Below, piece by piece: positions 3,298-61,740 of a DNA stretch of 64,000 nt; position 1 is the stretch's first letter; the number at the start of each line of letters is the position of its first letter. Below the pieces are notes generated by a model that was given only the letters and a program-made list of their open reading frames with translations, searched no databases and was not told where the DNA came from. The position numbers and the translations under genes were made by a program. This stretch comes from Yponomeuta sedellus (lineage: Eukaryota > Arthropoda > Insecta > Lepidoptera > Yponomeutidae): positions 21,514,672-21,578,671 of the forward strand of contig OW203721.1 of assembly GCA_934045075.1 (NCBI GenBank), given 5' to 3'.

Positions 3298-6058
<2,761 letters not shown>

Positions 6059-15086: not shown

Positions 15087-15157
15087 AATATAAAGATCAT
15101 AATCATTCGTGCAAGCTAATCCTCACACATACGCTGAGACTACTTGTTCTTCTTCTC

Positions 15158-15240
15158 CAGGCTATATGTTAGTCCACTGCTGGACATAGCTCTCTCCTAA
15201 TGAGCGCCATAGCGCCCTGTCTTCAGCTTGCCGCATTGAG
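15158..15240 (-). mobile_element. LINE 3'-end stub within intron 4 edge
   Basis: The minus strand reads MRQAEDRALWRSLGESYVQQWTNI then stop, the C-terminus of a YVQQWT-type LINE. The same stub is in the inverted copy (about 22119-22201), so it was here before the segment was duplicated. Confidence 0.75.
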
Positions 15241-15331
15241 ACTACGTAAAAAAAATATTCGTTTGGGTTATTTCACTGTTTTTGTGCTGCAGTATTTAAA
15301 AGTCGGTTTGTAGATTTATTTATGCACTTAC

Positions 15332-15461
15332 CGTCGTGAGAATCGTAGACGTAGATGATCTCCTTCCACCCGTAGTGAAGAATAGTGTCAACAACGGCTT
15401 TGTGGTAGTCTGGTCTCATGCTCACAGCGTGATCGATCAGTCCAGATGATGGTGGTATGAC
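15332..15461 (-). CDS. GluR1-like: AMPA-type glutamate receptor, exon 4
   Basis: This 130-bp exon is preceded on the minus strand by TTAACTAG and followed by GTAAGT. It starts in frame after the complete Lys codon ending exon 3 and encodes 43 residues plus the first base of a Gly codon. Residues 129-171 run VIPPSSGLID...MRPDYHKAVV...HYGWKEIIYVYDSHDG. The pattern MRPD..KA....I..Y.W....Y.YDS..G is the early amino-terminal-domain signature of AMPA receptors and matches the insect GluRIA/GluRIB type. The product is a postsynaptic glutamate-gated cation channel; this part forms the upper lobe of the extracellular amino-terminal domain. The next exon must lie left of the window. An identical exon sequence in reverse orientation sits at 21895-22024. 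Confidence 0.9.
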
Positions 15462-15518
15462 CTAGTTAATAAAAAAACATAAGGGTTATTTTACGAAAAA
15501 TATGATGTCATTGTTAAT

Positions 15519-21402: not shown

Positions 21403-21839
21403 GTTGATGATGATGATGATGAAGTCTTGATATCAAAATAAAAAAAATCCTTAAGGGTTGAAGATAATGGTTACCAACAGTTCTTTTAATTATACTATTT
21501 TTATTTTTAATGCACTACCCCGTGCTAAGGACAAATTTAAAAACCTATTTAGAGGCTAAAAATTTCACCCATGCCGGGATTCGAACCCGCAACCTCTGGC
21601 TATCCGTGCCAGAGCTCTACCAATCGCTGCCTGTACGTAATACAGAGAATAGTGTAAAGAGGTTCGAAATTTCACTGATGCCGTGAGTCGCCCATTGGCT
21701 CAATTGGTAGAGCGCTGGCACGGATAGCCAGAGGTTGCGGGTTCGAATCCCGGCATGGGTGAAAAAATTTTTAGCCTCTAAATAGGTTTCTAAATTTGTT
21801 CCTTAGCACGGGTTAGTGCATTAAAATAAAAATAGTATA

Positions 21840-22269
21840 ATTAACAATGACATATTTTTCGTAAAATAACCCTTATGTTTTTTTTATTAACTAGGTCATA
21901 CCACCATCATCTGGACTGATCGATCACGCTGTGAGCATGAGACCAGACTACCACAAAGCCGTTGTTGACACTATTCTTCACTACGGGTGGAAGGAGATCA
22001 TCTACGTCTACGATTCTCACGACGGTAAGTGCATAAATAAATCTACAAACCGACTTTAAAATACTGCAGCACAAAAACAGTGAAATAACCCAAACGAATA
22101 TTTGTTTTACGTAGTCTCAATGCGGCAAGCTGAAGACAGGGCGCTATGGCGCTCATTAGGAGAGAGCTATGTCCAGCAGTGGACTAACATATAGCCTGGA
22201 GAAGAAGAACAAGTAGTCTCAGCGTATGTGTGAGGATTAGCTTGGACGAATGATTATGATCTTTATATT
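21840..22269 (+). repeat. Inverted copy of the exon 4 segment
   Basis: This is the second arm of the pair described at 15087-15518, in opposite orientation and bounded on both sides by SINE sequence. It retains intron flanks, the splice acceptor and donor, and the LINE stub, so it was not copied from spliced mRNA. Confidence 0.9.
21895..22024 (+). pseudogene. Antisense-oriented duplicate of receptor exon 4
   Basis: The 130 bp are identical to exon 4 at 15332-15461, with intact AG acceptor and GTAAGT donor. It lies on the plus strand inside intron 3 of a minus-strand gene, so it cannot be spliced into the receptor mRNA. No other receptor exon is on the plus strand here. It is classed as a non-functional exon copy. 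Its perfect identity suggests a recent event, gene conversion, or a haplotype or assembly effect. Confidence 0.8.
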
Positions 22270-22940
22270 TTTAAATTTGTCCTTAGCACGGGTTAGTGCA
22301 TTAAAAATAAAAATAGTATAATCATGTGGGTACAGTGATATCGTTCCGATGTAAAACCTAACTGCAAAGTAGGTAGTCGGGGCTGTAAGTGATGCAATTT
22401 GCTTAAGCCAGATGTCGCTGCCTGTACGTAATACAGAGAATAGTGTAAAGAGGTTCGGAATTTCACTGATGCCGTGAGTTGCCCATTGGCTCAATTGGTA
22501 GAGCGCTGGCACGGATAGCCAGAGGTTGCGGGTTTGAATCCCGGCATGGGTGAAATTTTTAGCCTCTAAATAGGTTTTTAAATTTGTCCTTAGCACGGGT
22601 TAGTGCATTAAAAATAAAAATAGTATAATCATGTGGGTACAGTGATATCGTTCCGATGTAAAACCTAACTGCAAAGTAGGTAGTCGGGGCTGTAAGTGAT
22701 GCAATTTGCTTAAGCCAGATGTCGCTGCCTGTACGTAATACAGAGAATAGTGTAAAGAGGTTCGAAATTTCACTGATGCCGTGAGTTGCCCATTGGCTCA
22801 ATTGGTAGAGCGCTGGCACGGATAGCCAGAGGTTGCGGGTTCGAATCCCGGCATGGGTGAAATTTTTAGCCTCTAAATAGGTTTTTAAAGTTCTTTTAAT
22901 CTTAGGTTTTTTTATTATTGTTAACGTAACACCGTTATAA

Positions 22941-24915: not shown

Positions 24916-25043
24916 CTTTTCCGGGAACCACGGTGTGACGAAGGGCATCTGGAAGGTGTTGGTGTAGGAGTGCAGCGTATCAAAAGAGTCCGGAGTCACC
25001 GCGCCCAGCATCGACCACACGCCGCGCGCGAATTGATTGCAGA
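24916..25043 (-). CDS. GluR1-like: AMPA-type glutamate receptor, exon 3
   Basis: This 128-bp exon is preceded on the minus strand by TTTCTAG and followed by GTAAGT. Its first two bases complete the Ile codon begun by exon 2; 42 full codons follow, ending at a codon boundary. Residues 86-128 run ICNQFARGVWSMLGAVTPDS...HSYTNTFQMPFVTPWFPEK. The C-x-Q-F-x-R-G-V motif holds the first cysteine of the amino-terminal-domain loop, and F.TPWFP is the following conserved strand and turn. Both are typical of AMPA-type receptors and close to insect GluRI proteins. Codons are GC-rich compared with the surrounding intron. The plus strand is also open here, but it shows only the reversed splice signals of this exon. 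Confidence 0.92.
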
Positions 25044-26485: not shown

Positions 26486-26743
26486 AAACATCTTAGTTAT
26501 ATATTAAACGGGTCAAATCGCGATTATTTATTAGGTAAAACGTAATTACCTTATTTCCCGACGTTTCGGCAGCGTTACTGTTGCCGTTGAGTCTACCCGA
26601 GACCACGGCAACTGTAACGCTGCCGAAACGTCGGGAAATAAGGTAATTACGTTTTACCTAATAAATAATCGCGATTTGACCCTTTTAATATGTAACTATG
26701 TATGAGTATCGCGAATCATTTAGAGATACAATCGAAACATCTT
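26486..26743. repeat. Near-perfect 77-bp palindrome with 9-bp TSD
   Basis: Arms 26510-26586 and 26606-26682 pair with one mismatch around a 19-nt loop. Weaker pairing extends about 20 bp further out. The right arm plus 26683-26734 matches the non-palindromic copy at 21155-21300, so the left arm is an inverted duplication made on insertion. AAACATCTT flanks the unit (26486-26494, 26735-26743). Each arm holds the CGGCA...TGCCGAAACGTCGGG hairpin. Confidence 0.85.
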
Positions 26744-27469: not shown

Positions 27470-27665
27470 TAACATTTACATACAGGCACATACATTGCTT
27501 CTGGCCCCACACTAGGATACCCTGTGTCGTAGGAACCAGAAACAACGACATCACAAACATGTAAACATCCAAGACCTGGACTTTTTTTTTTTTTGTTTCC
27601 AGCTGGGATTCGAACCCGGGACCTCTTGCATGGTAGGCAGACGCGCTACCGCTACGCCACAGAGG
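27470..27665 (-). mobile_element. tRNA-Gly-like SINE
   Basis: The inverse of 20355-20530. On the minus strand it reads CTGTGGCGTAGCGGTAGCGC...CTACCATGCAAGAGGTC...GGGTTCGAATCCCAGC, then the body ending in ATGTTATGTTATG. The tRNA-like part is better preserved than in the other copy, but the acceptor stem does not pair. Confidence 0.7.
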
Positions 27666-41926: not shown

Positions 41927-42510
41927 ATAATTCTCAAGGTAAAAAAAAAACAATTTAGAGGCTAAAAATTCCACCCATGCCGGGATTCGAACCCGCGACC
42001 TCTGGCTATCCGTGCCAGCGCTCTTCCAATTGAGCAAATGGGCGACTCACCGGCATCAGTGAAATTTTGAACCTCTTTACATTATTCTCTGTATTACGTA
42101 CAGGCAGCGACATCTAGCTTAAGTAAATTGCATCACTTACAGCCCCGACTTCCCTCCTTTGCAGTTAGGTTTTTACATCGGAATGATATCACTGTACCCA
42201 CATGATTATACTATTTTTATTTTTAATGCACTAACCCGTGCTAAGGACAATTTTAAAACCTATTTAGAGGCTAAAAATTCCACCCATGCCGGGATTCGAA
42301 CCCGCGACCTCTGGCTATCCGTGCCAGCGCTCTTCCAATTGAGCTAATGGGCGACTGACCGGCTCAATTGGAAGAGCGCTGGCACGGATAGCCAGAGGTC
42401 GCGGGTTCGAATCCAGGCATGGGTGGAATTTTTAGCCTCTAAATAGGTTTTAAAATTGTCCTTAGCACGGGTTAGTGCATTAAAAATAAAAATAGTATAA
42501 TTCTCAAGGT
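41927..42510 (+). mobile_element. Three-unit tRNA-type SINE array sharing one 14-bp TSD
   Basis: Perfect ATAATTCTCAAGGT copies (41927-41940, 42497-42510) bracket a 556-bp insert. It holds two minus-oriented units in tandem (41941-42245 and 42246-42356), then a plus-oriented 3' part (42357-42496) ending in the family tail. The second and third units form a long hairpin around GGGCGACTGACCGG. One duplication for three units implies insertion as a multimer. Confidence 0.87.
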
Positions 42511-44285: not shown

Positions 44286-44430
44286 AAGACAAAGATCTGG
44301 CACGGATAGTCAGAGGTTGCGGGTTCAAATCCCGGCATGGGTGAAATTTTTAGCCTCTAAATAGGTTTTTAAATTTGTTCCTTAGCACGGGTTAGTGCAT
44401 TAAAAATAAAAATAGTATCAAGACAAATAT
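44286..44430 (+). mobile_element. 5'-truncated tRNA-type SINE
   Basis: A 123-bp insert runs from CTGGCACGGATAGTCAGAGG to the tail AAAAATAGTATC. It is flanked by AAGACAAAGAT (44286-44296) and AAGACAAATAT (44420-44430), a target-site duplication with one change. It is a simple single unit, unlike the fold-back copies. Confidence 0.85.
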
Positions 44431-52470: not shown

Positions 52471-52566
52471 CTACATGCAGCGGTATAACTTCGCCTCCCA
52501 TTCAGGATGTCGTGGGTTCAAGTTCCGGCATTTACCAATGACTTTTTTCTAACTAACGTACATTTT

Positions 52567-54708: not shown

Positions 54709-54937
54709 GTGAATACTATCAACCATAATCATTTGAAACAAATATTTCATTGATCAACTTTATTCATCATTTATGAAGTAAGTATGAAAATTGTACTTTT
54801 TAAATTTTTTACGCAGTCAGATTTTCTGTTTTTGAATTCTTAATTTTTACTCACTTAGCTTCACTAAAAAATATCTTCCTTCGGTTCTGACCGAGAAAAA
54901 CGAGCGGAATTGTCATTCTTACCGATAGTACCGATAC

Positions 54938-55578
54938 TTGACCGATACCCAAGTTCCACGGTCCAAAAAAAACTTGACCGATACGCAAGTTCCACGGTCC
55001 AAAAAAAACTTGACCGATACGCAAGTTCCACGGTCCAAAAAAAACTTGACCGATACGCAAGTTCCACGGTCCAAACAAAACTTGACCGATACGCAAGTTC
55101 CACGGTCCAAACAAAACTTGACCGACACGCAAGTTCCACGGTCCAAACAAAACTTGACCGATACGCAAGTTCCACGGTCCAAAAAAACTTGACCGATACG
55201 CAAGTTCCACGGTCCAAACAAAACTTGACCGATACGCAAGTTCCACGGTCCAAAAAAACTTGACCGATACGCAAGTTCCACGGTCCAAAAAAACTTGACC
55301 AAGATACGCAAGTTCCACGGTCCAAAAAAAACTTGACCGATACGCAAGTTCCACGGTCCAAACAAAACTTGACCGATACGCAAGTTCCACGGTCCAAACA
55401 AAATTTGACCGCTACGCAAGTTCCACGGTCCAAAAAAACTTGACCGATACCAAGTTCCACGATCCAAACAAAACTTGACCAATACGCAAGTTCCACGGTC
55501 CAAACAAAACTTGACCGCTACGCACGTTCCACGGTCCAAAAAAACTTGACCGATACGCAAGTTCCACGGTCCAAAAAA
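54938..55578. repeat. 18-copy minisatellite, 35-36 bp unit
   Basis: Each unit reads TTGACCGATACGCAAGTTCC then ACGGTCC and an A-rich end (A7, A8 or AAACAAAA). Most variation is in the A run; a few units have point changes or an inserted AA. Because units are 35 or 36 bp and free of stops, several frames on both strands stay open for up to 213 codons. This gives fake repeat proteins (VPRSKKNLTDTQ; WTVELAYRSSFF). Near-identity suggests recent expansion. Confidence 0.93.
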
Positions 55579-59635: not shown

Positions 59636-61325
59636 ATTATCACGCCGATATCAATCATACTTTGCGTTCTTTGCGATCTTCAGCAGTTTACAACGTCTCC
59701 TATAACTTCTCGTCGTGTAAATAAACTCCTGAGGTCACGCCTCGAATATCCAATTGTACTGTCGGGTGTTCTCGGTGAGATATTGCGTTGTTTCATCGGC
59801 TAAAGAGTGTTGTGAGTTATTTTTATGCGTTTTCTTTGTTCTAAGGGTAGGTTAGACACGTATGTTAAGCGGTTAGCCTGCAGATGGTGCGCGCGTCGCC
59901 CCCCACCTCCTAGGAACGTACCCGCGTCGTGAGTTACCCACATCTCCGTGAAAACTCGCTGCTCCAGGCACCGTCTATTTGCGTATGTTAGCGCGACGGG
60001 GTAATAATAAACCCTTTTTATTTATGGCCCCTCATCAAAAGTGATTTTTGGCTTTACATCATGGAAAATCAAATTTTTTTTGGCTACGTAAGGAGTAAAA
60101 AGTTAAGTTGTTTTTAATTCTAATAATAGAGAAGCGCGACCCATATTATTGTAAGCTATTGCATACTGATGTATCCTTACGTGCACTGTAACTGCTTGAA
60201 TTGTGCAGCGAGTGACTCGATTTAGTGTTTAAAACCTGTTCTAAATTGTGTGCTTTAAGTGTGAACCTGTAATAAGCTTTATGTTTCCCTATATAAAAAT
60301 CTATGCTATTTGTAATAGCTGTTGGTTTACCTTGAGTTGGTTGAGCTCTACCAATTACAAACTTTGTCGCGGTGTGTCTCTGCTGCTGCAAATGGCAACT
60401 GACTTATCATAGTGCTGGGGGCGTGAACCCTCAGCGCTGATTTTCAGTCAGTACCGAAAGCCCTAAGTGCTCTAGAGCGCGGCGTGACCTGTTGCAAAGT
60501 AATAAATAAAACAATATAATAAATACATTCAACATAACAGTAAAAACAGTCAAGATAATAATAAACGTGTGTAAACAAAATAAAAATATTGGTTTATAGT
60601 TAGGCAAATTTAGCGAAATATGTCAATTAATAAATAATACATTTCTGTGCATATTCATATAAAAGAAAATAAACATGGATATTATAATGTACTTGTATTT
60701 AAATATGAAATATTAATTATATATACATATATGGTAAAGATAGAATAAATACGCAGTAAATACGCATCCTCGATGCGATCACATTCTCGTAGTTACGTCA
60801 ATTAGTCGTAGTGTTAAGTCTGCGGCGCGAAGTTCGATTTATTAAGTGTGACATGTTTTAAATAAATATATATTTTGATATATCTCTTTTCTATTGCGCA
60901 TCCTGTTATTCAAAGTAATACTACACGTACTTCTCAAAGACCTCATTTGTACATTTCTAATCACAAATGTTCATTATGGATTTGCCAATCAGCATAGGAG
61001 GCTCGCTGATTGTTACCCAGGGTGCGGTAGACGTACGGGCTCAGTGAGTACGTCGTTCCGGGAGGCTCCTTTCATGATATATCATGATCTACTATGGAAA
61101 AGCAACGGACCGCCATCATTGGGAAGCTGGGGTCCCTTCAGGAAGCCTGCAGTGACATCGGAGCACTGCTGGCTTTCTGAAAAGAGATAGGCTGGCTGGA
61201 GTAAACTGACAGCTCCATTACGTACAATGGCCCAATCATTAGGCTAAGTGCGGAAATCTCAGGTCTAAGTAACTAACTATGATCTACTAAAAAAAATGCT
61301 AGAGATTTGATTAACACTTACATAT
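59636..61325. other. Upstream flank, no supported gene
   Basis: Frames at 59488-59803 run across the GC-rich block and have no domain. A short frame at 60894-61190 (SVSTSFREAPFMIYHDLLWK) is not recognised. No second gene is seen. Confidence 0.4.
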
Positions 61326-61740
61326 TTATTTTCTTTTTAATGCACTAACCCGTGCTAAGGACAATTTTAAAAACCTATTTAGAGGCTAAAAATTCCACCC
61401 ATGCCGGGACTCGACTGCAGGCAGATGCTGGATGCGGCAAGCTCTTGAGCTTCCCCTAATGAGCGCCATAGCGCCCTGTCTTCACAGGGCGCTATGGCGC
61501 TCATTAGGGGAGGGCTATGTCCAGCAGTGGACTAGTATAGCCTGACGATGACGATGATGACGGGACTCGAACCCGCGACACTCGCTGCCTGTACGTAATA
61601 CAGGGAGTATTGGAAAGAGGTTCGAAGTTTCACTGATGCCGGTAGTCGCCCATTGGCTCAGTTGGGAGAGCGCTGGCACGGTTAACCAGGTCGCGGGTTC
61701 GAGTCCCGGCACGGGTGGAATTTTTAGCCTACTTACACAT
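61326..61740 (-). mobile_element. tRNA-type SINE split by a LINE stub, with a plus-oriented unit
   Basis: A minus-oriented SINE start (TTTTTAATGCACTAACCCGTGC to CCGGGACTCGA, 61338-61414) is broken by a 146-bp LINE insert and resumes at 61571. A plus-oriented unit follows (CGCTGCCTGTACG... to GGTGGAATTTTTAGCC). Imperfect CACTTACATATT / TACTTACACATT flanks could be the target-site duplication. Confidence 0.75.
61405..61570 (+). mobile_element. LINE 3' stub with inverted 5' end and 10-bp TSD
   Basis: CGGGACTCGA flanks it (61405-61414, 61561-61570). The right part is the YVQQWTS-type 3' end, finishing GACGATGACGATGATGA. The left part (CTTCCCCTAATGAGCGCCAT...CCTGTCTTC) is its inverse, joined at CTTCACAGGGCG. 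Inversion at the 5' end with a duplication fits twin priming or snap-back during insertion. Confidence 0.85.

Follow-up and report, generated by a model that had tools for sequence, protein, structure and literature searches.

Template switching between RNAs during target-primed insertion, including double switches and the formation of mRNA chimeras, is already established in print (the papers below are cited from excerpts of their text). For the tripartite WEIRD-SINE-LINE of Magnaporthe, which is flanked by a 14-bp direct repeat, two template switches have been proposed within one target-primed event (PMC2104539). In LINE-1/mRNA chimeras a host transcript is fused into a target-primed insertion, and parts in opposite orientation have been ascribed to twin priming; 15 of 17 such chimeras map to the starts of transcripts, and the ends of six coincide exactly with splice donors (PMC13174262). 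Inversion of the 5′ part is found in about 18–31% of L1 insertions and almost never in Alu (PMC2912911; PMC12016303): one inverted Alu was counted among 5,554 in human and chimpanzee (PMC2912911), and 0.02% of 5,936 germline Alu insertions were inverted (PMC12016303). Among lepidopteran SINEs, HaSE1 of Helicoverpa is tRNA-derived and the origin of HaSE3 has been ascribed to proposed template switching; the words “inverted” and “tandem” do not occur in the excerpted text of the HaSE1–3 paper (PMC3272025).

Here we describe a composite insertion in a 64-kb stretch of DNA from the lepidopteran Yponomeuta sedellus (hereafter the window). We favor, with a probability of roughly two in three, a reading in which the block at 21479–22900 arose in a single target-primed retroposition of a tRNA-derived, often twin-primed SINE family, during which one growing arm (arm B) would have switched onto unspliced sense pre-mRNA.

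Structure of the composite and source of its exon

The block consists of 1,398 bp (21491–22888) enclosed exactly by a perfect 12-bp repeat, AGTTCTTTTAAT, which has no other exact occurrence in the window (Table 1). When 20,000 pairs of positions were drawn at random, none showed a direct repeat of 11 bp or longer whose copies both began no more than 3 bp from the chosen positions (pairs falling in simple repeats were passed over yet counted in the denominator). The perfect duplication reported in a preliminary description of this DNA holds. We give SINE positions as U, the coordinates of the 307-bp reference unit at 22323–22629. From left to right the block reads inverted SINE, forward SINE, host segment, SINE tail piece and two SINE units; this slightly corrects the order given in the preliminary description, in that the inverted piece stands leftmost and a partial unit is found ahead of the tandem pair. 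Segments of different origin are joined here within one target duplication, as in a chimeric retrogene, and two opposed arms stand head to head within it, as in a twin-primed insertion. By its ends the block is an ordinary member of its family, with the long end on the left (U305–307), the short end on the right (U259–260) and a 12-bp duplication.

Table 1. Coordinates of the composite, its source gene and the family insertions in the window
Feature	Position	Strand	Basis
Source of host segment	15087..15518	-	alignment and genome search
Source exon, predicted ionotropic glutamate receptor amino-terminal domain	15332..15461	-	protein matches
Preceding exon of the same gene	24922..25041	-	tblastn, glutamate receptor query
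Left target site duplication AGTTCTTTTAAT	21479..21490	.	exact repeat; last two bases also match SINE end
Arm A, SINE piece in inverted orientation, reaching U172, with its long outer end at U305-307	21491..21624	-	SINE alignment
Arm B, innermost SINE piece U93/94-U307	21625..21841	+	SINE alignment; final 2 bp common to host segment
Arm B, host segment, 430-bp copy of 15087-15518	21840..22269	+	sense with gene and with flanking SINE pieces
Copied 130-nt exon, both splice sites present	21895..22024	+	identical to source exon
Arm B, SINE tail piece U253-U307, begins at short-end TTTTTAAA	22268..22322	+	SINE alignment
Arm B, full SINE unit U1-307, tRNA-like part 22482-22550	22323..22629	+	alignment; tRNA match
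Arm B, outermost SINE unit U1-U259, ends at short end GGTTTTTAAA	22630..22888	+	tRNA-Ser-like part 22787-22860
Right target site duplication	22889..22900	.	exact repeat; first base also matches SINE
Inverted insertions of the family	6343, 21479, 22951, 41945, 52560, 57536, 61322		SINE alignment
One-stranded insertions of the family	16521, 44293, 49667		SINE alignment

SINE sequence does adjoin the host segment on both sides, as first described, with overlaps for which “2–3 bp” was slightly generous: read from the alignment, the junctions overlap by 2, 2 and 1 bp, host segment and SINE sharing 2 bp at either end. The tandem units at 22323–22629 and 22630–22888 show two differences in 260 columns, whereas the forward piece to the left of the exon differs from the first by four substitutions and three indels in 211 columns and from the second by only two substitutions and one indel in 165. 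This forward piece (21625–21841) carries C at alignment column 161, against T in both tandem units, and shares with the SINE copy at 44293 an additional T at column 272. Because it differs from the array more than the tandem units differ from each other, the exon probably lies at a change of SINE template, a reading that depends on few sites.

When 15087–15518 was aligned with the reverse complement of 21840–22269, the two were near-exact matches: one alignment gave 98.4% identity over 433 columns, and a second showed three substitutions and two indels, all of them intronic (under other aligner settings four indels, with 420 of 429 columns identical). The exon is identical at 130 of 130 nt, and the splice sites AG/GTCATACC and GACG/GTAAGT are retained in the copy. 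Among the 41 matches listed from a genome search (657.5 Mb, 57 contigs; best 40 of 2,732 first-look candidates scored), only the source and the copy cover the full host segment; the other 39 match a dispersed piece of about 90 bp within it. That piece lies in the source intron (15136–15245), flanked as judged by eye by GAGACTAC, and was carried along in the copy. The earlier assignment of 15087–15518 as source and of the segment in the block as copy is supported, and so is the dismissal of spliced mRNA as template, since introns are kept and both splice sites are present. The intron flanks set the copy apart from a processed pseudogene, from which introns are removed, and the sequence shows neither a splice junction nor poly(A) that would prove an RNA template; pre-mRNA would be compatible with it.

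The source gene was recognized through protein matches. With a GluA2 query, tblastn aligned residues 78–117 to the preceding exon (25041–24922, minus strand; E = 9e-6) and the sequence from residue 117 onward to the exon that was copied (from 15452 downwards, minus strand; E = 3e-5); PDB sequence matches of this exon were weak (best E = 0.003). The weak PDB matches and the tblastn alignments suggest an ionotropic glutamate receptor, with the exon coding for part of its amino-terminal domain. Given the position of the preceding exon and the source exon on the same strand, the insertion lies in the intron directly upstream of the source exon, and source and copy are 6.3 kb apart.

A SINE family with frequent inverted insertions

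The family is tRNA-derived. ARAGORN identified five tRNA-Ser and one tRNA-Thr, all six inside family copies, and ten of 11 Rfam tRNA matches likewise fell inside copies; the match outside the family, at 27600–27662 on the minus strand, is weak (31.2 bits) and perhaps marks another tRNA-derived repeat. As regards an RNA polymerase III promoter near the RNA 5′ end, the tRNA part begins about 158 nt into the unit, which contains TTTTT stretches. First-look searches of the genome returned between 1,460 and 3,222 candidates depending on the query (best 40 scored each), as for a dispersed SINE of many copies, and the SINE tail had no match in viral and prokaryotic contigs. The tandem junction U307/U1 is nearly invariant, with nine variants in 43 occurrences (overlapping loci counted repeatedly), as might result from a source that is itself tandem or from precise jumps between unit ends.

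This SINE often inserts head to head, in inverted form. The window holds ten insertions of the family, seven of them inverted and three one-stranded, when 61322 and 61582 are taken by eye as one. In a genome sample not chosen by structure, although non-random in being ranked by similarity to a single copy, 23 of 39 loci were inverted and 16 one-stranded; odd ends make four of the 23 uncertain (L047, L062, L065, L069), and 19 of 39 are firm. The sample comprised the 40 best genome matches to 120 bp from within the tRNA region of copy 16521, minus 16521 itself, and loci were classified after about 500 bp had been fetched on each side. The count of 23 comes from these fetched letters: the match table alone shows an opposite-strand partner at only 5 of 40 places, because the 120-bp query stretch is absent from most partner arms.

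A further set (L002–L038), fetched with tandem and inverted queries and hence biased by structure, was used solely for ends and duplications. It contains 33 inverted clusters, with a direct end repeat of at least 9 bp in 29 and of at least 12 bp in 25 (in L024 a single duplicated stretch is represented twice). In the structure-blind sample 15 of the 23 inverted loci had an end repeat of at least 9 bp, L062 being doubtful as its repeat matches SINE sequence. Within the window, only 6-bp repeats and no convincing duplication were found at 52560 and 57536, and at 61322 the script found none, while an imperfect ACTTACAyATT can be made out by eye. Duplications measured 8–16 bp, with a median of 13, in 31 insertions chosen for having them. 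In these same 31, picked by the presence of duplications, the left edge leans toward AC/AA (A at −2 in 20, C at −1 in 14, A at +1 in 19 and A at +2 in 17) and the right edge toward TT/GT (T in 16, T in 18, G in 15 and T in 17). As AC/AA and TT/GT are reverse complements, both nicks look alike, which fits one enzyme nicking both strands.

The ends of the inverted insertions follow a common pattern. With both sets pooled, 48 of 55 inverted clusters have one long outer end (U280–307) and one short outer end (U250–270), and two of the seven exceptions are the composite at 21479–22900 itself, which the script split and fused with its neighbor. Inner ends, by contrast with these fixed outer ends, are scattered, ranging in 54 joins over U30–U271 and U1–U272. 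If U307 is the RNA 3′ end, as we infer, then these 48 clusters are bounded by that end on one side and by a fixed internal site on the other; taken with the variable joins between the arms, we read this as twin priming.

Several neighboring features deserve mention in their own right. At 42205–42501 two SINE arms form a nearly perfect palindrome (one difference in 139 columns) preceded by a further inverted unit; here a single cDNA may have snapped back and copied itself, as opposed to the use of two templates. Snap-back self-copying was rejected for 21479–22900, where the arms differ by four substitutions and three indels in 135 columns. The insertion at 61322–61730 was considered as a second composite with foreign sequence; by eye it is instead an inverted SINE later hit by another inverted retroposon, nested with its own duplication CGGGACTCGA. 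The window also contains a TCTG tetranucleotide array of 2.76 kb (3298–6056; about 690 copies, 99% matches) that is open in several frames on both strands, a 36-bp minisatellite of 18 copies (54936–55578), also open in several frames, and a 205-bp palindrome (26494–26698), 92% self-complementary, that looks like a foldback MITE.

Exon capture by the family looks rare. No second captured host exon was found in the fetched loci, a verdict covering all but the gaps in L022, L042, L050, L056 and L069. The non-redundant fetched loci contain ten other gaps of at least 100 bp between neighboring SINE pieces, and five of the ten (in L003, L010, L012, L024 and L067) fall outside insertions with duplications of their own. 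In L046 (663–707) a 45-bp non-SINE filler separates SINE pieces of one arm, within an 11-bp duplication. The SINE blocks of L006 and L007 (G000:C4:12372094-12378292), about 2.6 kb apart, have a common left flank, and L007 resembles a segmental duplicate of L006 that has been truncated.

Proposed event and rival explanations

The structure, duplication, source and orientation of the block are observed, as is the end pattern of the family in the loci read; the order of events, a template of RNA as opposed to coding-strand DNA and the type of enzyme are inferred. We envision that the endonuclease of a putative partner LINE cut the two strands some 12 bp from each other. One strand would have paired through its 3′ end with the 3′ end of the RNA (the long end, ...GTATAAT), so priming arm A; the other would have paired through its own 3′ end with the internal GGUUUUUAAA (the short end), priming arm B from the window's right. 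Synthesis of arm B would have begun on a tandem-unit SINE RNA and moved, near U253, onto the glutamate receptor gene's unspliced sense pre-mRNA at position 15087. From there it would have run through intron, exon and intron to 15518 before a second switch, to the 3′ end (U307) of another SINE RNA, which it would have followed to about U94 before the arm was joined to arm A.

The direction of synthesis decides which templates are needed. Every segment of arm B, SINE pieces and host segment alike, is in sense, so that for an arm grown from the right all templates are sense and unspliced sense pre-mRNA suffices, with no need for antisense RNA or the template strand. The preliminary description had instead proposed a single cDNA growing from the left, which would have switched onto antisense RNA or the gene's template strand. 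That route would retain the introns as well, but it would also demand antisense templates for 21625–21841 and 22268–22888: the forward SINE pieces that flank the exon share its orientation, and the ends of the family point to two inward-growing cDNAs. We consider it highly improbable. An assembly artefact that joined repeats seems equally remote; the SINE repeats are dense enough to invite one, but the 12-bp duplication is flush, source and copy differ at several sites and the contig is 27.3 Mb long.

What arm B copied between its two SINE templates is a finer question. Source and target are 6.3 kb apart in a 657-Mb genome, which points to a local template, and this closeness fits local DNA as well as nascent RNA. 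That the nascent unspliced transcript of the hit, actively transcribed gene served as template, with inverted exon copies being laid into the host intron, is a suggestion we make tentatively and at a little under even odds. Alternatively, in the same target-primed event, arm B could have moved onto local coding-strand DNA, perhaps exposed by transcription or repair. LINE reverse transcriptase is able to copy DNA, and both the kept intron and the position of the source in the same gene agree with such a switch; however, it requires an exposed DNA strand, and the remaining arm-B templates are sense SINE, as expected from RNA. We judge it unlikely. A switch onto DNA, as first proposed, is possible to that extent, but the strand copied would then be the coding (non-template) one and not the one claimed. 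It is also conceivable, although we think quite unlikely, that the block formed in two steps, a plain inverted SINE being supplemented later with an inverted exon copy through DNA repair (templated insertion, break-induced replication or conversion). Such repair typically yields local, inverted templated insertions whose junctions overlap by 1–2 bp, and the outer ends alone are those of an ordinary family member. The 1–2 bp overlaps at the junctions do not discriminate between the models, and under DNA repair the sense orientation taken alone is a coin flip. What counts against two steps is that the left SINE piece is unlike the units of the right array (at few sites) and that the host segment has no short direct repeat of its own, the best between its edges being 7 bp and off the junctions. 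TTTTTAAA does bracket the SINE array to the right of the host segment, and two whole units produce that by themselves. Retroposition of the host segment into an array already in place should have left a repeat on either side of it, and none was found; nesting of this kind was rejected on that ground and because the left piece differs from the right array (again at few sites).

DNA transposons were rejected as well. A foldback or MITE-type element is at odds with a duplication of variable length and two outer ends that differ. Helitrons make no target duplication, and Pack-type elements have terminal inverted repeats and a fixed-length duplication; the duplications here range from 8 to 16 bp and the outer ends are of different sequence. 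Retroposition of a SINE composite by target priming, as stated in the preliminary description, is supported, and a single event with a switch of arm B onto unspliced sense pre-mRNA is the reading we retain.

Consequences and relation to known systems

A short element can in this way move an unspliced exon, together with both splice sites, over a few kilobases. The duplex of the exon region with its antisense copy is computed at −798 kcal/mol with 424 pairs; folded alone, the two strands reach −92 and −99. In the pre-mRNA a hairpin of about 430 bp could form between the exon and its antisense copy, comparable to those that serve in editing or exon masking. Such an intronic complement of an exon could mask splice sites or recruit double-stranded-RNA editing. 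If twin priming is truly frequent in this family, captured exons could be placed inverted in the host intron and form a ready-made complement there.

As far as our searches of the literature reach, the combination described here is novel, as are the very high rate of SINE inversion, the fixed internal priming site and the unspliced exon from the hit gene; no report of a predominantly inverted SINE family was found in the open-access literature searched. The SINE described here and HaSE1 are both tRNA-derived, on the excerpted account of the latter. Compared with WEIRD-SINE-LINE as described in the excerpt, the middle template here is an unspliced piece of the hit gene and lies within one arm of an inverted insertion. 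The LINE-1/mRNA chimeras, again from the excerpted text, differ in that here introns are kept and the source gene is also the target gene. The twin priming of human L1 in the model of Ostertag and Kazazian, as summarized in our sources, likewise involves two opposed cDNAs, one from the RNA 3′ end and one from an internal site, and its target duplications of about 13 bp resemble those of this family. Human SINEs, in contrast, stand apart from a family in which 23 of 39 loci in the structure-blind sample are inverted, the internal site is fixed and units occur in tandem. If about half or more of its insertions are twin-primed, this family would offer a natural system for asking why Alu almost lacks, and L1 commonly shows, twin priming.
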